From a virus: DNA of 20,283 nt. The translations under genes and the position numbers were made by a program. The stretch's first letter is position 1, and each line of letters starts with the position of its first letter. The DNA is taken from the IMG/VR virus record IMGVR_UViG_3300017917_001767, positions 1-20,283 of that record; one strand, written 5' to 3'. Positions 3,055 to 19,483 of this stretch are shown here, in pieces. A model generated the notes under the pieces. The model ran no database searches. It was not told the DNA's origin and was given only the letters and a program-made list of their open reading frames with translations.

Positions 3055-4233
3055 ATGACACATATTGATAAAATTTTAATTAAGATTTTGAATTTACCAG
3101 AGAGTGCTGTGGCAGATGTGCCTCGCCGAGAAATGAAGATTTTGAAAAATCTGGGAAAATTGATAACCTCATCAAATTTTATAACAGAAAATCAAGGAAA
3201 GTTATTGGTTAAAATTTTAAACGAAAATTTAGACAAATTTTCAGGACTGTCAGAAGAAATTTCTTCTTCAATTTTATCACCTTCCTGGTCAAAAGTATTT
3301 AGGCCAGTAGACAGGACTAAAAAGATATACTTGGATTCGACAAATTCTGCAATTTTCATGGAATTTGCATTTTCAACCTCAATACGTAAAACACTACAGT
3401 CTATATGGAAGGACCTTGGTAGTGTCAGTCAAGAAAATTCTGGTAAAATTTACAACATAGAGCTAACTGAAAAAAATATTGTAAAGTTAGTTGAAACCTT
3501 TCAACCACTAGGTTTTGAAATTGACGAAAAAATTGAAGATTTTTACAAAATCATAAAATCTTGGTCAGAAAGCGAAATTAAGACTCAATTTTTCCTCAGT
3601 AGTATCGACCATACTGGATTTAAAAATGCAATTTCTGATGACCTAGGTCGCGACACTGAGTTGTCAGAATGTCTAATTGCCGACCGTAGTGTTAGGTACC
3701 AGTATTTTTTAGAAAATACCTCAAAAATTCCAGAAAATTTGACCGAAATTTTAGCCTATAGAAAAAATTCTAAAATATGGATTAATAAAAATTCTTTCAA
3801 GCTGGACGAGATTTTTAGTTCATTAAAAGAATTAAAAAGATTTCCAACACTGGTAATTTTTGACACTAATGACCATAAGCGTTGTTACGAGGATCTAGTA
3901 AATCTTCACAAAAATCTGGAAAAAAATGGAATTTCTGACAATGTAGGAATTTACTTCCGACTTGACAATAGTGAGCATGGATCTATGTTCAATAAATTCA
4001 TAGCTGAACACAAGTACAATGTACAATTAGATAATACAACAAAAATTGTGGGTGTACAAAATGGAAAAATTCCCAAATTTTTCCTAAAAAATGCGTGGAA
4101 GCCATTGAGTGTGGTTTCTATTGGCAGTAGCTTAAAACAAACAAAAACAGCGGTTTATGCCAACTGTTGCGATTTAATAATTTCTTATACAGAACAAGAA
4201 CCAATCATAGAGAATAGAGTGCTATGGGAGTAA
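3055..4233 (+). CDS. Orphan 392-aa protein, first gene of uvsW operon
   Basis: I do not recognise this protein. It is Lys/Ile/Asn/Phe-rich with no Walker A, no metal cluster and no membrane segment. The C-terminal half looks like an alpha/beta domain, with TLVIFDTNDH, an IYFRLDN stretch and PLSVVSIGSS strands. It begins at the predicted transcription start and ends by overlapping uvsW by 10 bases, so it is likely coupled to uvsW translation. Its base use differs from its neighbours: by eye I count about 37 AATT tetramers in 1.18 kb, against about 11 in the similar-sized uvsX. This suggests separate ancestry or a special DNA property. A helicase-related or UvsW-partner role is possible from position only. 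Confidence 0.85.
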   Translation: MTHIDKILIKILNLPESAVADVPRREMKILKNLGKLITSSNFITENQGKLLVKILNENLDKFSGLSEEISSSILSPSWSKVFRPVDRTKKIYLDSTNSAIFMEFAFSTSIRKTLQSIWKDLGSVSQENSGKIYNIELTEKNIVKLVETFQPLGFEIDEKIEDFYKIIKSWSESEIKTQFFLSSIDHTGFKNAISDDLGRDTELSECLIADRSVRYQYFLENTSKIPENLTEILAYRKNSKIWINKNSFKLDEIFSSLKELKRFPTLVIFDTNDHKRCYEDLVNLHKNLEKNGISDNVGIYFRLDNSEHGSMFNKFIAEHKYNVQLDNTTKIVGVQNGKIPKFFLKNAWKPLSVVSIGSSLKQTKTAVYANCCDLIISYTEQEPIIENRVLWE

Positions 4234-5693
4234 AATTAGTAATTCGAGACGAGGTTAACATAAAATTTGAGAATCTTCCATTAGATGCTCGAAAAAAACT
4301 TGTCTCAACTTTTAAGTATGTCGATCCGACTGCAAGATATAGACCTGCATACAAATTAGGACGATGGGACGGAACAATCAGCTTGTTTGGACTCGGTGGT
4401 AACGGTTATTTAAATCAGCTGGAAAAATGCTTCGAAGTGTTAGGATCAATGGGCATAGAGATCGACGAATTAGAAGATCTTAGAACTCCTGTAAAGATTG
4501 ATTTTGCACCTGTTACAAATAATTACTGGGGCGATCAAGGAAAAGTTTGGCCAGAAGGTCATCGATTTGCAGGCCAGCCGATAACTTTACGAGATGACCA
4601 AGTTGAGATTATAAACCGATTTTTCACTAACACACAATCACTGCAAGAAGTTGCAACTGGTGCAGGTAAAACTATCATGACTGCTACACTTGCTCATTGT
4701 GCGGAAAAATACGGACGAACAGTTACGATTGTGCCAAATAAAGACCTTGTAACACAAACAGAAGAAGATTTTGTTAATGTTGGCTTAGATGTTGGCGTTT
4801 ATTTTGGTGATCGTAAGATGATTGGGCATAAGCATACCATCTGCACGTGGCAAAGTCTTAACGTATTAGATAAAAAATCTAAAAATTGGGACCTAGAAGA
4901 AGCTCTGTCTTTATCAGAATTCTTGCACGGTGTACAGACAGTGATTGTTGACGAAGTACACATGGCAAAAGCAGATGTTCTTAAGAATTTACTTACACAT
5001 AATTTTTCTAGTACTCCTATTAGATGGGGGCTAACTGGTACTGTTCCTAAGGATGAGTTTGAGGCAGAACCAATCTTTGCCAGCATTGGGCCTGTAGTAG
5101 GCGGCATCAAGGCACACGAACTACAAGAGATGGGCATATTATCTAACTGTCATGTTAATATTGTACAAATGATTGATTTGCCTGAGTTCAAGTCCTACGC
5201 AGAAGAATTGAAATATCTTGTAACAAACAAAGACAGAATTACTTATATTAGTAAACTAATAGAAGGTATTGCAGATTCTGGCAATACACTAGTTTTAGTT
5301 AACAGAATCGATACAGGCAAAACACTAACAGAATTGTTGCCGGACGCAGCATTCATTTCAGGCGAAGTAAAAGGCAAAGACAGAAAAGAGGAATATAAAG
5401 AACATGCGACAAATGATAACAAGATTACTGTGGCGACTTACGGTGTGGCCGCTGTTGGTATTAATATTCCAAGGATTTTTAATCTGGTTCTTCTTGAACC
5501 CGGAAAGAGCTTTGTCCGCGTTATACAAAGCATTGGGAGAGGCATTAGAAAAGCAGAAGACAAGGACTTTGTCCAAATCTGGGATCTCACATCTACCTGC
5601 AAATACGCCAAGCGCCATCTCACCCAAAGGAAGAAATTTTATAAGGAAGCCAAATATCCGTTTACCTTGGAAAAAACGGATTGGTCTAAATAA
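4224..5693 (+). CDS. uvsW: UvsW superfamily 2 helicase
   Basis: The T4 UvsW ATPase unwinds D-loops, R-loops and branched DNA, performs fork regression and ends origin (R-loop) initiation. All key motifs are visible in 489 aa (T4: 503). There is an N-terminal DNA-binding region with RYRPAYKLGRWDG (39-50), Walker A ATGAGKT (144-150), the DEVH box (243-246), motif III LTGT (270-273), motif V near TYGVAAVGIN (405-414) and motif VI QSIGRGIR (435-442). Translation probably couples to the upstream gene, since the ATG lies inside that gene's last codons. Confidence 0.95.
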   Translation: MGVKLVIRDEVNIKFENLPLDARKKLVSTFKYVDPTARYRPAYKLGRWDGTISLFGLGGNGYLNQLEKCFEVLGSMGIEIDELEDLRTPVKIDFAPVTNNYWGDQGKVWPEGHRFAGQPITLRDDQVEIINRFFTNTQSLQEVATGAGKTIMTATLAHCAEKYGRTVTIVPNKDLVTQTEEDFVNVGLDVGVYFGDRKMIGHKHTICTWQSLNVLDKKSKNWDLEEALSLSEFLHGVQTVIVDEVHMAKADVLKNLLTHNFSSTPIRWGLTGTVPKDEFEAEPIFASIGPVVGGIKAHELQEMGILSNCHVNIVQMIDLPEFKSYAEELKYLVTNKDRITYISKLIEGIADSGNTLVLVNRIDTGKTLTELLPDAAFISGEVKGKDRKEEYKEHATNDNKITVATYGVAAVGINIPRIFNLVLLEPGKSFVRVIQSIGRGIRKAEDKDFVQIWDLTSTCKYAKRHLTQRKKFYKEAKYPFTLEKTDWSK

Positions 5694-12673: not shown

Positions 12674-13669
12674 ATGAGCCTCATAGCCGACACATTACTA
12701 ACATTCTTACCTGCCAAAAGAAAACAAACTCCTAGCGGTTGGATTAGCTTCAATGCCCCATGCTGTAATGACAAAAGACAGCGCGGCGGATTCATTATGA
12801 ATGCAGGAGATGCGGTCAGCTATCATTGTTTTAACTGCGGATTCAAAGCCAGTTGGCAACCAGGAAGAACTATCAGTGCCAAAATGAATAAGCTCATGCG
12901 GGACTTGAACATGCCCGATGATATTATCAGTCAACTAAGATTAGAAGCACTGAGACTTAATCAAAATGAAAATGCAACTGTAAGAGAAGTTATTCCTAAG
13001 TTCGATGAACGTGCATTGCCCATGGATGCAAAAAGTCTAGAAGAGTGGAGCACTTGGATCGAATTACAAGGTTGGGAAAATACTGATCAAGAACTAATCA
13101 ATGCGTTCTGTTATCTACGTAATATACGCAACATAGATCCATATTCATTTCCTTTCTATTGGACTAATAAGATTGGATTTAAGAACAGAATTATTATCCC
13201 TTTTTACAAAGATGGTATAATTGTAGGCTATACTGCCAGGGCTACTAACGATGCTAAACCTAAATTTATCAGCGAGCAACAGCCAGGATATGTGTTTAAT
13301 TTAGACAATCAAACACAGAACAAACAGTTCGTGATTGTTTGCGAAGGCCCGTTTGACGCGATAAGTATTGATGGATGTGCGCTACTGGGTGCCGAAATAA
13401 AAGACAGTCAGAACTGGCTGTTAAAACAGTTGGGTAAAGAGATAATACTAGTTCCGGATAGAGACCATGAAGGCCCTCGTACAGTAGAGCAAGCGTTAGA
13501 ATATGGATGGTCAGTGAGTATGCCAGACTGGCCTTCTGGCGTTAAAGATGTTAACGATGCTGTTTGTAAATTAGGCAAACTAGCAACACTATACCTAATA
13601 CTGCAACATCGAGAGTCAAACAGTCTTAAGATACAACTAAGGGCAAAGAAATGGTTCGTAGAACTATAA
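12674..13669 (+). CDS. 61: DNA primase gp61-type
   Basis: The 331-aa product has a zinc-binding N-terminus with Cys30, Cys31, His51, Cys52 and Cys55 around PCCND and YHCFNCGF. A TOPRIM domain follows: VIVCEGPFDAI with Glu224 and Asp228, then LVPDRDHEG with Asp262 and Asp264 for metal. T4 gp61 is 342 aa and makes RNA primers for the gp41 helicase, whose gene follows after one small gene. SWQPG after the finger and RIIIPFYKDG (the RNAP basic strand) fit primases. No Shine-Dalgarno is possible because the promoter -10 box is six bases upstream. The C-terminal codons overlap the next gene. Confidence 0.9.
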   Translation: MSLIADTLLTFLPAKRKQTPSGWISFNAPCCNDKRQRGGFIMNAGDAVSYHCFNCGFKASWQPGRTISAKMNKLMRDLNMPDDIISQLRLEALRLNQNENATVREVIPKFDERALPMDAKSLEEWSTWIELQGWENTDQELINAFCYLRNIRNIDPYSFPFYWTNKIGFKNRIIIPFYKDGIIVGYTARATNDAKPKFISEQQPGYVFNLDNQTQNKQFVIVCEGPFDAISIDGCALLGAEIKDSQNWLLKQLGKEIILVPDRDHEGPRTVEQALEYGWSVSMPDWPSGVKDVNDAVCKLGKLATLYLILQHRESNSLKIQLRAKKWFVEL

Positions 13670-13863
13670 AAATACCAAAACATGGCGGGCCCGACGGACA
13701 AGGGTTACCAAGAAATGCATTTGAGCAGTTGTATGCGGTTATCGAAGATTTGACCTTGACCGATGAAGAAGTTAAACTAGCAATAGAGCTATGTCTTGCT
13801 GTCAGCACACAGAAGCAGTGGAATGATGAATACAGACAAGATTTAATTAAGAGAATTGAATGA
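13651..13863 (+). CDS. Small protein between primase and helicase, 70 aa
   Basis: AAGGG at 13639-13643 lies seven bases upstream of the ATG, inside the primase gene. The product is basic at its start (MVRRTIKIPKHGGPDG) and then helical (AFEQLYAVIEDLTLTDEEVKLAIELC). It ends on an ATGA overlap with the helicase gene. Lying between gp61 and gp41, a link to the primosome is plausible, but the family is not recognised. Confidence 0.75.
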   Translation: MVRRTIKIPKHGGPDGQGLPRNAFEQLYAVIEDLTLTDEEVKLAIELCLAVSTQKQWNDEYRQDLIKRIE

Positions 13864-15293
13864 AACAGAATACCGACTACGGATACGAGATACAAAAAGT
13901 TTATTTAGAAATGATGCTGGCGGATGCAGCAACCTTTAGCCGATGCCAGGCTATCTTTGATCACTCATTATTTGATCGCAAACTACAAAACGCTGCCGAT
14001 TTTATCAACAACTATGTTAAAGAACACAACGTAGTTCCTACTGAAACGATTGTCAACGCCGCCACCGGCACTAATTTCAAAGTACCCAGTGATTTAAGAG
14101 AAGAACACTTTGATTGGTTACTTAATGACTTCGAAACTTTTATTAGACACAAGGGACTTGAAAAAGCCATCCTTGAAAGTGCTGATATGTTGGAAAAGGG
14201 AGAGTACGGTAGTGTAGAAGAAAAGATCAAGAAAGCTGTACAAATTGGTTTACAAAAAGACATGGGTACAGACTACTTTTTAGATCCTCGTGCTCGATTG
14301 TTGAAGATTAAAGATAAAAACGGACAGATTAGTACTGGATGGAAGGCCATCGATGACAAGTTGTTTGGTGGCATGAATCGAGGCGAGCTGAATATTTTTG
14401 CAGGTGGTAGTGGTGCAGGTAAGTCTTTGTTCTTAGCTAACTTAGGGCTTAACTGGGCACTACAAGGTTTAAATGTTGTATATCTTTCGCTAGAACTTAG
14501 CGAAGAGTTGGTTAGTATGCGTATGGATGCTATGCTAACCGGAATGCCAACAAAAGAAGTTTTCAAGAACATCGACGATGTTGAAATGAAAATTAAAATG
14601 ATTGGTAAAAAATCTGGGCAGTTCCAAGTCAAGTATATGCCGTCTGGGAAGACCGTAAATGACATACGTTCCTATATGAAAGAGTATGAAATCAAAATGG
14701 AACGTAAAGTAGATGTACTATTAGTAGACTACTTGGACTTGTTGATGCCCATTGGCAAAAAGATCTCTGCAGAGAACTTGTTCGTCAAAGACAAATATGT
14801 CTCTGAAGAGTTGCGTAATTTAGCCATGGAAAAACAATGCATCTGTGTAACAGCTGCACAGTTGAACCGTGGTGCTGTTGAAGAAGTAGAATTTGACCAC
14901 AGTCATATTTCGGGTGGTTTGAGTAAGATCCAGACTGCGGATAACGTGTTTGGTATCTTTACTAGCCGTGCTATGCGTGAGCGTGGTCGTTACCAAATTC
15001 AGCTGATGAAAACTCGTAGTAGTAGCGGTGTTGGACAAAAGATTGATTTAGAGTTTAATATCGACAGCTTACGTATTACGGACTTGGCTGAAGACGACAG
15101 CTACGGTAACGGTGCGCCCAGTGCAGGCAGTAGTTTACTCAATCAAATTAAACAGAGACAAACTGTGGTTGATCCTACAACGGGAGAAGTTGATCCTAAT
15201 AGTTTGAGCAATGCTCCAAAAGTTCGTGCTAATGTTGAAAGTAGTAAGTTAAGAGAACTTTTGAACAACCTACCTACTGATGATGTGGTGTAA
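13860..15293 (+). CDS. 41: Replicative helicase gp41 (DnaB-like)
   Basis: 477 aa, the hexameric 5'-3' helicase of the T4 replisome, partner of gp61 primase. Walker A GGSGAGKS is at 182-189. Walker B LLVDYLDLL is at about 287-295, and the sensor motif AQLNRG at 333-338. HISGGLSKIQTADNVFGI and QLMKTRSSSGVG (with the arginine finger type residues) complete the RecA-fold ATPase of the DnaB family. The N-terminal helical region holds the primase-contact domain. A Gly/Ser/Pro-rich C-terminal tail follows LEFNIDSLRI. Translation begins on the ATGA overlap with the 70-aa gene. Confidence 0.94.
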   Translation: MKQNTDYGYEIQKVYLEMMLADAATFSRCQAIFDHSLFDRKLQNAADFINNYVKEHNVVPTETIVNAATGTNFKVPSDLREEHFDWLLNDFETFIRHKGLEKAILESADMLEKGEYGSVEEKIKKAVQIGLQKDMGTDYFLDPRARLLKIKDKNGQISTGWKAIDDKLFGGMNRGELNIFAGGSGAGKSLFLANLGLNWALQGLNVVYLSLELSEELVSMRMDAMLTGMPTKEVFKNIDDVEMKIKMIGKKSGQFQVKYMPSGKTVNDIRSYMKEYEIKMERKVDVLLVDYLDLLMPIGKKISAENLFVKDKYVSEELRNLAMEKQCICVTAAQLNRGAVEEVEFDHSHISGGLSKIQTADNVFGIFTSRAMRERGRYQIQLMKTRSSSGVGQKIDLEFNIDSLRITDLAEDDSYGNGAPSAGSSLLNQIKQRQTVVDPTTGEVDPNSLSNAPKVRANVESSKLRELLNNLPTDDVV

Positions 15294-15358: not shown

Positions 15359-15802
15359 ATGGAACTGCACCACATCAAAGATATCAACGACCCACTTGTA
15401 AAAGTTATCAAGGACGACCCAGTTCGTCCACACATTCCTCTTGAACAAAGAGTTAATGACCTAGCTGAAATACTAATCCTTAAAGCAGGAGAAGAAGTTT
15501 TAGCAGCCACTTGTATGCAGTGGCTTAAAGATATTCCTGCGGATGAAAAGGATCTTGTTGATTTAGCAGAAACACATGATGTAGCTGTATTCTACACTAT
15601 CTGGAGTTATGCTCCAGGTGCTGGCCAACAGTTGATTAAGGCTGCGGCAGATTGGCTATTGCAAGAGTACAAAGACGTCAAGAACATTGTAACTCTTAGC
15701 CCGCAAACTGAAATGGCCAAGCGGTTTCATTTAAAGAACGGTGCTAAGATTCGTAGAGAAAACCTAACTAGTGTTAACTACGAATACTACAGTAAAGAAT
15801 AA
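15359..15802 (+). CDS. GNAT-fold protein with malonyl-CoA-decarboxylase-like C-terminus
   Basis: 147 aa with a ribosome site GGAG (15349-15352). The pattern is GNAT-like: strand EVLAATCMQWL, then DVAVFYTIWSYAPGAGQQLIKAAADWLLQ (acyl-CoA pyrophosphate loop and helix), then VTLSP...MAKRFHLKNGAKIRRENL and NYEY at the end. Malonyl-CoA decarboxylases share a GNAT fold and carry a TLSP motif, an FHL-x-NGA motif and an NY-x-Y end in this same order. The phage version is a fraction of their size. Either acetyl transfer or another acyl-CoA reaction is possible; catalysis has to be shown. Convergent with the next gene over a shared terminator. Confidence 0.75.
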   Translation: MELHHIKDINDPLVKVIKDDPVRPHIPLEQRVNDLAEILILKAGEEVLAATCMQWLKDIPADEKDLVDLAETHDVAVFYTIWSYAPGAGQQLIKAAADWLLQEYKDVKNIVTLSPQTEMAKRFHLKNGAKIRRENLTSVNYEYYSKE

Positions 15803-15828
15803 AAAAGCCGCATTGTGCGGCTTTTTTT
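15801..15828. terminator. Bidirectional intrinsic terminator
   Basis: AAAAAAGCCGCA (15801-15812), loop TTG, TGCGGCTTTTTTT (15816-15828). The stem has a GC core with an A-run on the left and a T-run on the right, so it terminates from both sides. It lies between the stops of the GNAT-fold gene (plus) and the 15827 gene (minus). Confidence 0.92.
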
Positions 15829-16894
15829 ATTTGTAGGTTCTTGGAACGTCTGGAGAATAATTACTACCAGCACGTTTGTCACCCTGTAACATTTGATTAC
15901 GCAACATACGACTGTATGTGGCAATTTGATCAGCTGTATGTGATTTAGGATCTAACTGATATCCAATAGTTCCGTCAGCAAGACCAGCTAATACTTTCTT
16001 CACGTCCTGCTCTGTATAAGGCCCAGACTTTGCAATAACACCTTTAAGTTTAGCACGATTCAATGCGGTATTGATTCCCTGAGCATAGGTACTAGTGTTG
16101 CCAGTCGCGGCAGGAATTTCTGCAGGTTGAGTTTTAACACCGGTTCCAGTAGTATAAATTCCGCACCATTGAAATGTGTCGCATCCTGCTTTAACAGCTG
16201 CGGCGTAGGCTTGATTAAAATTGTTCATGTACTTGATACGAGCTTGATCTTCAATAGTACATTTTTGTTGTTCTGGTTGAGCAGCAGGCGTTTCGGCCGG
16301 CACTGGATCTAGTGGCTGTGCTGATACTGTACCAGAAGCAACTGGACTAGAAACTGCACCGTCTTGTTGTGCTGGTGCAGCTGGTGCAGCTGGTGCAGCT
16401 GGTGCATCAGGTTCGGCATACTGTACATTCCAAATTTCTCCTGTACCGCTCATTACAACATTGCCGCTGCCGTCTACTAGAGCTGAAACAATCTTTTTCC
16501 CATTACGGGGATCTATATCACCAATTTTTAATTCGTCTAATCTTGCCGCACGTCTTAGAGCTGCCAATGCTTCCTGTACTGCGGATCTTTTAACGTTGTT
16601 GCCACCTAAATAACTCCACTGATCCTGTGCTGCTGCAGGCTGTGTTTTAACAGGTGCAGCCGTACTTTTCTTAGTGCTGTACAGTTGGCAAAATCTAAAC
16701 TTCTTACCTGGGCCTAGTTGCTTTAAAGCTACTTCTTTAGCCTGTGTTAGATTCTTAGCGTCTATTACTGGAATGCCGTCTGCAGGTTTGTAAGCATCGA
16801 TATTTGTAGCACCTTGTGCTGGAGTTGCACCTGTATCTGCTTCTGCAATAGCACGTATTTTGTTGATAAAATGGTGTATAGAATTGTTGTTCAT
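15827..16894 (-). CDS. Late protein with two copies of an unknown domain
   Basis: 355 aa, family not recognised. Two similar units are visible: FRFCQLYSTK (66-75) followed by VKTQPA, and FQWCGIYTTG (241-250) followed by VKTQPA. Each continues with a helix containing an AL-x-RA-type motif and then a K-(K/I)-V-x-x-L-x-DG motif. An Ala/Pro linker (APAAPAAPAAPA, near 165-175) and a second Pro/Ala-rich stretch lie between them. The N-terminus (MNNNSIHHFINKIRAIAEAD) is an amphipathic helix with IAE, like the capsid-targeting peptides of T4 internal proteins (EFIAEA), which are cut by prohead protease after (L/I)xE. No membrane segment. A minus-strand late box lies upstream. Confidence 0.8.
   Translation of the reverse strand: MNNNSIHHFINKIRAIAEADTGATPAQGATNIDAYKPADGIPVIDAKNLTQAKEVALKQLGPGKKFRFCQLYSTKKSTAAPVKTQPAAAQDQWSYLGGNNVKRSAVQEALAALRRAARLDELKIGDIDPRNGKKIVSALVDGSGNVVMSGTGEIWNVQYAEPDAPAAPAAPAAPAQQDGAVSSPVASGTVSAQPLDPVPAETPAAQPEQQKCTIEDQARIKYMNNFNQAYAAAVKAGCDTFQWCGIYTTGTGVKTQPAEIPAATGNTSTYAQGINTALNRAKLKGVIAKSGPYTEQDVKKVLAGLADGTIGYQLDPKSHTADQIATYSRMLRNQMLQGDKRAGSNYSPDVPRTYK
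16372..16407 (-). repeat. Four 9-bp tandem units (CTGGTGCAG)
   Basis: CTGGTGCAG three times and CTGGTGCAT once, in frame. On the minus strand this encodes the Ala-Ala-Pro linker repeats of the duplicated-domain protein. A likely slippage hot spot that changes linker length by three residues. Confidence 0.9.
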
Positions 16895-16908
16895 AATAGT
16901 TCTCTTGT

Positions 16909-16916
16909 TATTTATC
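16909..16916 (-). promoter_or_regulatory. Late-type promoter for the minus-strand gene
   Basis: The minus strand reads GATAAATA, 14 bases before the ATG at 16894, with an AAGAGAAC ribosome-site-like stretch in between. It is divergent from the tail-fibre late box about 15 bases away. Confidence 0.65.
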
Positions 16917-16930
16917 AGTTTGTATTATTG

Positions 16931-16938
16931 GGTAAATA
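16931..16938 (+). promoter_or_regulatory. Late-type promoter for the tail fibre gene
   Basis: GGTAAATA lies 26 bases before the tail-fibre ATG (16965), with AGGA (16951-16954) as ribosome site. Together with the box at 16909-16916 it forms a divergent late-promoter pair in the 70-base gap. Confidence 0.65.
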
Positions 16939-16964
16939 TACTAGAACTCTAGGAATCCACAGAT

Positions 16965-18791
16965 ATGTCTACAACAAATCGTTCACTGCGACTAGTAGGA
17001 AGAACTGCTACTAGCTTAAATGGAACTGCAGCCGCTAAAGGCGAAATATTTTACGATCTTACCAATCAAACACTAAGAATCTTTGACGGCTCCACAGTTG
17101 GCGGCGTAACATTGGCCAACAGAGTATGGGTAACTGAACAGCTGACCACCAACGTTGATTACAATAATCTGTTAAACAAGCCTGTACAGCCTGTTCTGAG
17201 TACAGTTGCTACATCTGGTAACTATACAGATCTCACCAACAGACCCGTAATATTTTCTGGCAGTTATAACGACCTAACTGACAAGCCAGCACCAACGCCA
17301 ACTGCTACAACGGATACGCTAGGATTAGTCAAAGTTGACGGAACCACTATTACTATCACTAATGGAGTAATCAGCGCCGTTGGGGGCGGAGGAGGAGGTG
17401 CAGACATCAGCGCCAGCAGTATTAATGCACTGGCAGATGTGGACACACAGACCAGTGCTCCTACAACCAGTAGTTATTTAAAATGGAACGGAACTAACTG
17501 GGTACCTGCTGCTATCACAGCCGCAACTGTTGGATTAGGCAATGTAACTAACGAAAGTAAAGCCACAATGTTTACCAGTCCTACATTTACTGGTACAGTA
17601 GCTTTACCTGCAGGCACAACCATTGGTGGTGCTAACGTAGCCAGTACTGGTAATATCACGTTCTTGAACAATAGCATCAGTACTACCAGCGGCAACATAA
17701 CCATGGCTAGGACCACAGTATTCAGCAGTGGCATACAGGTTACAGGATCAATTGGCGCCAGTATAAATGCTCTCAGCGATGTAGATACTGTAACTACACC
17801 GCCTACAAGTGGACAGGTGTTAAAGTGGAATGGTACTAACTGGGCACCAGCAACTGACGCTACTTCGGGCGGCGGCGGATCTAACGCAGACACATTAGAT
17901 GGCTTGGACAGCACTTACTTCCTAGACTATGCTAACCTGACCAACAAGCCAGATCTTACAGCATTCACCGGTATTACCCTAACTGATACAACATTTTCAG
18001 GCATAGTCAACGGTCTAAGCGCAGCCAGTGTAGGACTAGATCAAGTGGCCAATGAATCAAAAGCCACTATGTTTACCAACCCTACGTTCACAGGTACTAC
18101 GGTAACCATACTCACACGTGGCATCACTGGATTTAGCGGCACAGGCGGTGTACTATTGACCAACACCAGTCCTACGATCAGTAACCCAACTTTCACAGGC
18201 ACTGTATCAGGTTTAACCATTTCAGCAGAGACAGTGGGCTTGGGCAACGTTACCAACGAAAGCAAGGAAACTATGTTTACCAATCCTACTTTCACAGGAA
18301 CAGTTACGGGCGTTACCAAGGGTGCGGTAGGTTTGAGTAATGTGGAAAACACAGCATTAAGTACCTGGGCAGGATCATCTAACATTACCACTATTGGCAC
18401 GTTGACCAGTAACGTTCGTACTTCAGGCAGTATACTCAGCACAGGAACCGCGGGTATTGGCTATACCACAGGTGCAGGCGGTACAGTTAACCAAACCACA
18501 AACCGTACCACAGGTGTTACTATAAACAGACTTACTGGAAGAATTACCCTATTCAATACTACCAGTGCAGCCAACGCTTACAGTATCTTTATTGTGACCA
18601 ACAGTACCGTAGCAGCCACAGATAATATCATCGTTAACGTGGTCAGCAGTAACGTGGCCAACTCACTTTACATTCCTACAGTAACCGCAGTGGCCGCAGG
18701 CAGCTTTAGGATCGGCGTATACACACCTACAGGTGTAGGCACAGACGCACCGGTGTTGAGCTTTACAGTGATCAAGGGCGCAACTGCTTAA
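16965..18791 (+). CDS. Tail fibre-like receptor-binding protein, 608 aa
   Basis: An N-terminal RLVGRTATSLNGTAAAKGEIFYDLTNQ segment (virion attachment type) is followed by several YNDL-type repeats ending in (N/D)KP or NRP. There are three 24-residue VGL..V.NESK.TMFT.PTFTGT repeats, as in T4-like fibre repeats. Two 30-residue (A)INAL.DVDT...LKWNGTNW repeats also occur. Gly runs (near residues 142 and 302) act as hinges. The C-terminus (VNQTTNRTTGVTINRLTGRITLF ... VLSFTVIKGA) matches a beta-rich receptor-binding tip common at the end of phage fibres. It ends in a double stop TAATAG. Function as host-recognition fibre is well supported by form; the receptor is unknown. Confidence 0.88.
   Translation: MSTTNRSLRLVGRTATSLNGTAAAKGEIFYDLTNQTLRIFDGSTVGGVTLANRVWVTEQLTTNVDYNNLLNKPVQPVLSTVATSGNYTDLTNRPVIFSGSYNDLTDKPAPTPTATTDTLGLVKVDGTTITITNGVISAVGGGGGGADISASSINALADVDTQTSAPTTSSYLKWNGTNWVPAAITAATVGLGNVTNESKATMFTSPTFTGTVALPAGTTIGGANVASTGNITFLNNSISTTSGNITMARTTVFSSGIQVTGSIGASINALSDVDTVTTPPTSGQVLKWNGTNWAPATDATSGGGGSNADTLDGLDSTYFLDYANLTNKPDLTAFTGITLTDTTFSGIVNGLSAASVGLDQVANESKATMFTNPTFTGTTVTILTRGITGFSGTGGVLLTNTSPTISNPTFTGTVSGLTISAETVGLGNVTNESKETMFTNPTFTGTVTGVTKGAVGLSNVENTALSTWAGSSNITTIGTLTSNVRTSGSILSTGTAGIGYTTGAGGTVNQTTNRTTGVTINRLTGRITLFNTTSAANAYSIFIVTNSTVAATDNIIVNVVSSNVANSLYIPTVTAVAAGSFRIGVYTPTGVGTDAPVLSFTVIKGATA
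17421..17852 (+). repeat. Two 90-bp repeats in the fibre gene
   Basis: The 90-base units at 17421-17510 and 17763-17852 both encode INAL(A/S)DVDT, then a variable stretch, then LKWNGTNW(V/A)PA. The two copies are diverged at the DNA level, so they are old duplicates held by protein selection, or spread by recombination. Confidence 0.8.
17529..18305 (+). repeat. Three 72-bp fibre repeats
   Basis: 72-base units at 17529-17600, 18030-18101 and 18234-18305 encode 24-residue modules of the VGL-x-x-V-x-NES form. A broken fourth copy is at about 18325-18360 (VGLSNVEN), and extra PTFTGT ends at about 18183-18210. These resemble fibre shaft repeats. Confidence 0.85.
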
Positions 18792-18793
18792 TA

Positions 18794-18872
18794 GGGCGAA
18801 GCCCGCAGCGCAGAAATCCGCAGTCGCGAAGCGCCGGCAAATTTACTAGCCGCGAAGCGGTAACGGCTACGC
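18794..18872 (+). repeat. Cluster of three GCGAAGC mini-hairpins
   Basis: GGGCGAAGCCC (18794-18804), CGCGAAGCG (18825-18833) and CCGCGAAGCGG (18850-18860) all share the core GCGAAGC. This is known as an exceptionally stable DNA mini-hairpin (a GAA loop closed by C-G pairs). TAGCCG (18847-18852) can instead pair with CGGCTA (18864-18869), giving an alternative structure. The stretch is strikingly GC-rich in AT-rich DNA and holds no gene. No T-run follows the last hairpin. Confidence 0.85.
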
Positions 18873-18898
18873 AAAAGTGCGTTCAGTTAGCTCTAGTC

Positions 18899-18906
18899 CA
18901 TAAATA
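18899..18906 (+). promoter_or_regulatory. Late-type promoter CATAAATA
   Basis: CATAAATA ends seven bases before the ATG at 18914, so the late transcript would start at or beside the start codon, leaving no ribosome site. Confidence 0.6.
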
Positions 18907-18913
18907 TTGTACT

Positions 18914-19174
18914 ATGCCTCGCACGTACTATCTACCAGAGTTGCATGACTTTGAATACATAGCTAGGGCACCATGGCCCGTAATTACCACGCCTAACCAG
19001 CAGTTAGATTGGATAGCGGCTGTTGATGAACTGGAAGCCTGGCTAAATCGCTATATAGGGTCACACTATGCAGAATGGGCCTATCACAATGGCACTACCA
19101 TAGACTACTGGACTGCCTGCATAGCCTTTCGCCGTGAACGCAACCGTACACTATTCTTATTAACATGGACTTAA
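18914..19174 (+). CDS. Hypothetical protein, 86 aa
   Basis: Starts just after a late-type box with no Shine-Dalgarno. The product contains LPELHDFEYIARAPWPVI, a helical LDWIAAVDELEAWLNRYIG stretch and a Trp/Tyr-rich YAEWAYHNGTTIDYWTACIAFRRERN segment. The aromatic content could suit a membrane-associated or virion-tail role, but there is no clear membrane segment. Overlaps the next gene by 10 bases. Family unknown. Confidence 0.72.
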   Translation: MPRTYYLPELHDFEYIARAPWPVITTPNQQLDWIAAVDELEAWLNRYIGSHYAEWAYHNGTTIDYWTACIAFRRERNRTLFLLTWT

Positions 19175-19293
19175 AGCAGCTACAACCTATAATAGAAAAT
19201 GACTGGTACTACTGCCTAGCAGTCACAGTCTTACTGGTAGTGGCATTTGACTTGGGTTTACTTATAGGTTGGATTTGGGTCGGCCTGTTGTAA
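19165..19293 (+). CDS. 42-aa single-pass membrane protein
   Basis: The ATG lies in the end of the previous gene. The product has a short polar N-terminus (MDLKQLQPIIENDW) and one long hydrophobic segment (about residues 16-42, starting YYCLAVTVLLVVAFDLG and ending WIWVGLL). Such small membrane proteins in late regions can be lysis factors (holin or antiholin-like) or superinfection-exclusion factors; no diagnostic motif decides. It overlaps the convergent minus-strand gene by 32 bases. Confidence 0.6.
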   Translation: MDLKQLQPIIENDWYYCLAVTVLLVVAFDLGLLIGWIWVGLL

Positions 19294-19483
19294 CATCCAA
19301 CCTAGGATCCACACAAGGACATGACTCGCTAAATCTAAGTAAGAACTCTGTAAGTTCTCGTCCTTCTGGCACCCAAAAGCGTGTACGATTCAAGTGTACT
19401 TCATAGTTAAACTGATGTGTTTCTATGTAGTTGAACACTTCCCGTAGTCTTGGGTTTAATGTTAGTATGTAGAATTCCTGCAC
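19262..19483 (-). CDS. Hypothetical protein, 73 aa, GTG start
   Basis: Minus strand, with GTG at 19483 directly abutting the palindrome TAAATATTTA. The product reads as a genuine protein: FYILTLNPRLREVFNYIETHQ, then YEVHLNRTRFWVPEGRELTEFLLRF and CPCVDPRLD at the C-terminus. The helix-strand-helix form and paired Cys suggest a compact fold, and the many Arg may hold nucleic acid. Family unknown. No ribosome site is visible. Confidence 0.72.
   Translation of the reverse strand: MQEFYILTLNPRLREVFNYIETHQFNYEVHLNRTRFWVPEGRELTEFLLRFSESCPCVDPRLDVTTGRPKSNL

Follow-up and report, generated by a model that had tools for sequence, protein, structure and literature searches.

The stretch of DNA analysed here, called the window below, comprises 20,283 nucleotides (positions 1 to 20,283 of the IMG/VR record IMGVR_UViG_3300017917_001767) with a GC content of 39%, and is a fragment of a T4-related phage genome. 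Pfam matches indicated a RecA/UvsX-like gene (1183-2277) and a UvsW-like helicase gene (4224-5693). The replication gene cluster includes a gp61-type Toprim primase gene (12674-13669, + strand, PF13155), followed by a gene for a gp41-type DnaB-like replicative helicase (13860-15293, + strand, PF03796, E = 1.3e-20), which is a fixed positional landmark; the named helicases most similar to it came from jumbo phages, PA5oct among them, at about 50% identity. Between an acetyltransferase-like gene and a convergent 355-aa ORF stands a bidirectional intrinsic terminator of canonical form (15801-15827), with a 12-bp stem, A6, and T6. Further along the + strand lie a repetitive tail-fibre-like ORF of 608 aa (16965-18791) and an ORF of 86 aa (18914-19174), neither of which matched Pfam. 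An ORF of 73 aa on the - strand (19262-19483), the first conserved opposite-strand gene, forms a convergent junction with them.

The first-pass annotation of this DNA had reported three hairpins with a GCGAAGC core within 67 bases, and these were confirmed at 18794-18860 on the + strand. The core occurs at 18796, 18826, and 18852 (+) and only once more in the window, at 1831 (-); dinucleotide shuffling was applied to the window 500 times, and three same-strand copies within 80 nt never arose. Mini-hairpin 1 (18794-18804, GGGC-GAA-GCCC, 4 bp) begins right after the stop codon of the tail-fibre-like ORF, and the relative L053 has C-G and A-T at the two outer pairs of this stem (CAGCGAAGCTG), both changed in a compensatory way. 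A spacer in which AGCGC is joined by a diverged AAAATT-like stretch (18805-18824, GCAGCGCAGAAATCCGCAGT) leads to mini-hairpin 2 (18825-18833, CGC-GAA-GCG, 3 bp, flanked by a T.C mismatch), and a second spacer with the AT-rich core CAAATTT (18834-18849) leads to mini-hairpin 3 (18850-18860, CCGC-GAA-GCGG, 4 bp), the repeat units being spaced by 30 and 26 bp. Mini-hairpin 3 corresponds to helix 2 of the family alignment described below, where it was 100% paired and three of its four pairs were changed on both sides somewhere.

Three things had been overlooked in the first-pass annotation: a terminal stem-loop, a late-promoter-like motif, and the relatives. The terminal stem-loop reads TAAC...ACGC-AAAAGT-GCGT...GTTA (18861-18889, + strand) and is followed by GC, so that the feature extends to 18891. 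TAAC (18861-18864) pairs with GTTA (18886-18889), and the inner ACGC (18869-18872) with GCGT (18879-18882). Across relatives, the outer stem appeared as TAAC/GTTA, CAAC/GTTG, TAGC/GCTA, CAGC/GCTG, and AAGC/GCTT. The motif ATAAATA (18900-18906, + strand) resembles a T4-type late promoter by consensus match only. Together with the terminal stem-loop, the three hairpins form an element of roughly 100 bases (about 18794-18891), designated element A. The alternative stem that had been proposed to compete with the third hairpin, TAGCCG (18847-18852) with CGGCTA (18864-18869), is present in the window; it was not kept in the closest relatives, L053 and L142. As the whole region folded no better than shuffles (RNA z +0.56, DNA z -0.70), the case for an element must rest on comparison.

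At least about 60 relatives of element A were found in IMG/VR, all in metagenomic records of related uncultured giant phages and mostly in fragments. A first scan was made for three spaced GCGAAGC copies; the matches listed were mostly coding repeats of GC-rich phages, with L053, L012, and L029 as clear relatives, and further members were collected with more specific patterns. The general form consists of 2-4 units of about 26-34 bp, in each of which a mini-hairpin is accompanied by an AGCGC-like piece and an AAAATTT-like spacer. The units are followed by a last hairpin (often CCGCGAAGCGG) and then by a stem-loop such as AGCGGTAAAACGC-GAACTA-GCGTTACCGCT. A late-promoter-like motif was observed downstream of A in 33 of 61 loci, and an opposite-pointing one upstream in 13 of the 61. 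In a subgroup (L440, L453, L456, L466, L471, and L474), the hairpins are GTGC-AAA-GCAC, GTGC-AGA-GCAC, or similar, and the T-runs are longer.

Covariance models were built from these members; one of them (R1) showed poor structure and was set aside, and the other (R2) was used instead. R2 was run on five records of 91-356 kb and gave exactly one match, A, in each; a motif scan with looser criteria, applied to the 356-kb record and to a 147-kb one, found matches only at the places of A and of the partner element B described below. The gene order around A was also constant when the loci were compared by marker proteins. Upstream on the same strand were the helicase gene (43/43 loci), the acetyltransferase-like gene (41/41), and the primase gene (17/17); downstream on the opposite strand were an AAA-ATPase gene (23/23) and the 73-aa convergent ORF (21/21). 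These loci span about 55-95% helicase identity to the window, and some contigs are closely related, hence not all counts are independent.

The direct neighbour of A varies, being a tail-fibre gene, the 86-aa ORF, a 145-aa ORF, the acetyltransferase-like gene, or the helicase gene, and the 86-aa ORF is a conserved neighbour that occurs on either side of A. By mechanical ORF calling, the nearest predicted upstream ORF lies on the opposite strand in 27 of the 61 loci. With its direct neighbour varying and its position fixed relative to the helicase gene and the opposite-strand block, A has the fibre gene beside it only incidentally, and the proposed link of the hairpins to fibre genes is not supported: hairpin clusters do exist in dozens of related phages, where they may follow the helicase gene, the acetyltransferase-like gene, or one of several small ORFs. 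Protection of the fibre mRNA, another suggested function, was likewise rejected as a general role, as mostly other genes adjoin A and the upstream gene often points away. The interval that separates A from the acetyltransferase-like gene (15803-18791 in the window) is nearly empty in some relatives and holds up to about 7 kb of genes in others, and is therefore a variable locus that can hold tail-fibre genes. The slot directly 3' of A is occupied, depending on the phage, by the 86-aa ORF or by an ORF of 143-145 aa (L012:347-778), and neither of them matches Pfam.

Outside this group, the repeat unit was absent from the distant named jumbo phages PA5oct, Atu_ph07, Phosso, and SCTP-2, on which ground the family may be confined to one lineage. 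Comparison of the element DNA with 50,697 phage records gave short chance matches only, and among the matches listed for 84,980 bacterial and archaeal genomes there was no convincing copy, just unrelated-looking repeats. No earlier description of the element was found in the literature searched, which covered few subscription journals.

Beyond the convergent junction lies a block of about 12-17 kb of genes on the opposite strand, and at its far end a second element, B, faces A. A facing B was found in all eight records with room for it (G001, G004, G005, G011, G012, G016, G019, and G020), at 11.8-17.1 kb from A; the distance in G016 spans the record ends and assumes circularity, no terminal repeat having been found. 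B is built of a mini-hairpin, AGCGnAAAAATTTT, CCATTC, a stem of 7-10 bp of changing sequence, and (A)CTCTGGG. It is located at G001:107478(-), G005:127717(+), G016:351083(+), G020:65387(+), and about 18718(+) in G012, and is shorter or variant in G004, G011, and G019. The B hairpin of G012 (CCGCGGAGCGG) has a GGA loop and was detected without the GCGAAGC seed. Since the window stops 1.4 kb after A, its own B would fall outside. The block between A and B (G001:93700-107400 and G005:127900-141000) is conserved in relatives and contains small opposite-strand genes, including an AAA ATPase and several ORFs annotated without function. The block is arranged differently in the L440-type subgroup, where the hairpins are followed by a gene found outside B in the other phages.

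Both A and B sit at transcription strand switches with a shift in base composition, and GC skew flips at each of them. Skew was considered as a sign of an origin or terminus and dropped: in the 356-kb record, third-position GC skew was alike for plus-strand and minus-strand genes (-0.134 vs -0.143). The flips follow the coding direction and thus give no independent sign of an origin.

The stems were then compared across an alignment of 43 members. The covariation score was 0.219, as against 0.101 +/- 0.008 for shuffled alignments and at most 0.05 for slid controls, and 50 double-change cells were counted vs 11 in shuffles; the alignment had been fitted to the model and hence leans towards the structure. 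In a smaller, unfitted alignment (A2), covariation showed no clear excess over its shuffles. The mini-hairpins comprised 281 Watson-Crick cells, no G.T, and one A.C, and their stems vary through paired changes such as CTACGAAGTAG, GTGAAAC, and CTGCGAAGCAG. The terminal stem on the + strand had 34 G.T and 20 A.C, among many misaligned cells. The loops were mostly GNA, chiefly GAA, with AAA and AGA loops in one subgroup, counts that are biased since members were found via the GCGAAGC seed; the GGA loop of the G012 B element was found unseeded.

GNA loops with two or more G-C pairs have a very high melting temperature and nuclease resistance (PMC4686876), and the core of element A is identical to the ultrastable d(GCGAAGC) mini-hairpin of that work, which concerned synthetic oligonucleotides, whereas the motif here is natural, conserved, and repeated in phages. 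In phage N4, C-G-closed loops of the GNA type extrude at physiological supercoiling (PMC4496689), and the mini-hairpins of A have this C-G-closed GNA loop. Paired stem changes free of G.T, together with loops of the ultrastable and extruding class, favour the mini-hairpins acting as DNA hairpins; the terminal stem may act as RNA. The initial interpretation is partly supported: ultrastable mini-hairpins of DNA that serve as a structure or bind a protein fit the paired stem substitutions and the mostly GNA loops.

Among known systems, the closest resemblance is to T4 oriE, which has evenly spaced 12-nt iterons that are syntenic in close relatives; oriE, oriF, and oriG are all close to places where transcription changes strand and where the base composition shifts as well (PMC3016281). 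Like oriE, element A is a syntenic cluster of direct repeats at a strand switch with a compositional shift and with a promoter or promoter-like motif nearby (PMC3016281): its 2-4 units are evenly spaced at roughly 26-34 bp, its setting is conserved (helicase 43/43, AAA-ATPase 23/23), and the shift follows the coding strand. The 12-nt repeats of oriE are not described as hairpins, in contrast to the longer units of A with their GNA mini-hairpins, and A, as a candidate origin, differs further by its terminal stem-loop and late-type promoter motif. For T4 itself, the choice among origins and the role of the oriE iterons are stated to be unresolved (PMC3016281). With the N4 early promoters, which are DNA hairpins recognised by the virion RNA polymerase, A shares strand specificity, a dsDNA phage genome, and short, GC-based hairpins whose loop is C(GNA)G (PMC4496689). 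The stems of A are shorter, and its 2-4 hairpins are arrayed in one place. A further lead is the clustering of stem-loops. The complementary-strand origins of G4-like ssDNA microviruses have several stem-loops in a short stretch and provide single-stranded DNA for primase loading; those genomes are single-stranded, and the likeness serves as a lead only.

Because A has the feature set of oriE and adjoins the primase and helicase genes, we place first the interpretation of A as a single-copy, orientation-fixed cis element serving as a replication-origin-type site of a T4-related jumbo phage lineage. This assignment is tentative, and we hold it at somewhat below an even chance. It is favoured by the single A per genome, the fixed synteny, the facing B, the tandem units with AAAATTT-like spacers, the covariation, and the GNA loops. 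In such a site, the repeat units would serve as iterons, and negative supercoiling or passing transcription would extrude the C(GNA)G mini-hairpins of the + strand, with the AT-rich spacers assisting unwinding. The exposed strand would then load a putative initiator or the gp41/gp61-type helicase-primase encoded upstream, and the facing element B, at the other end of the opposite-strand block, would serve this system as its second site. Several observations count against an origin. The excess of G.T over A.C in the terminal stem could point to RNA, and the repeat unit is missing from the four distant named relatives. Moreover, the best-studied origins of T4 rely on middle or early promoters (PMC3016281), whereas the motif beside A is of the late type.

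Another view is that A is a structured RNA: the + strand transcript would fold into the mini-hairpins and the terminal stem-loop and would either be a small RNA or govern processing or stability at the end of the helicase-side transcripts. Strong covariation agrees with this view, as does the excess of G.T in the terminal stem. In 26 of the 34 sequences scanned, of which some are unrelated, the terminal-stem RNA of the + strand folded better than its reverse complement, and A often begins within 15 nt of the upstream stop codon. However, A is no 3' UTR at the 27 of 61 loci where the mechanically called upstream ORF is on the opposite strand, the mini-hairpins lack G.T altogether, and the window gave no Rfam match at the gathering threshold; we regard a structured RNA as rather unlikely, yet as a serious competitor. 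A and B could instead be DNA-hairpin binding sites used in transcription, their extruded mini-hairpins acting as promoters, enhancers, or boundaries for the adjacent late promoters, comparable to the early promoters of N4. The C(GNA)G core suits the N4 requirement for extrusion (PMC4496689), and late-promoter-like motifs lie on one or both sides of A in 39 of the 61 loci. Against this, each genome has just two such sites and dozens of late-promoter-like motifs, and the stems in the window are 3-4 bp long as compared with 5-7 bp known for N4. A query with the N4 vRNAP core was unmatched in four long records, a weak negative made without a positive control. A role of this kind seems improbable, but it too is a serious competitor.

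Three further explanations are disfavoured. For a transcription terminator speaks the short distance, a few kb in most members, between A and the convergent junction, but no U-tract directly follows any stem in the window, a lack that had already led the first-pass annotation to doubt simple termination. Downstream genes with their own promoter motifs also often run on in the same direction, and a terminator of the canonical bidirectional kind is present at another place in the window (15801-15827), which makes termination very unlikely. A packaging (pac) or segregation site would be expected to show the single copy and fixed orientation seen for A. Headful packaging of the T4 type, however, requires no pac site, and the large terminase gene is 21-27 kb distant in four records; there is very little probability in this explanation either. 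Finally, the hairpins had been thought possibly to belong to a mobile family, and a REP- or MITE-like repeat landed by chance beside the fibre gene would account for the unit-like tandem build with its changing count of 2-4 units. The finding that each genome has a single A and a single B, at orthologous places, contradicts and largely refutes this idea, and the matches listed for the bacterial and archaeal genomes included no convincing copy, leaving chance insertion as the least credible of the explanations.

Taken together, a single-copy, syntenic, and covarying element that is kept down to about 55% helicase identity probably has an important role. A broader proposal starting from the origin-type site is that A and B represent a new class of phage origin in an uncultured jumbo clade, in which arrays of supercoil-extruded GNA mini-hairpins, paired at the two ends of an opposite-strand gene block, would be recognised in single-stranded form and would load the replication machinery; we consider this unlikely. 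Should A and B prove to be origins, a natural role in replication would be added for GNA mini-hairpins, which are known mainly from work on N4 promoters and on synthetic DNA, and the covariance model would be an origin marker for metagenomic jumbo phages. Whatever its role, element A is a constant border next to a tail-fibre locus that varies.
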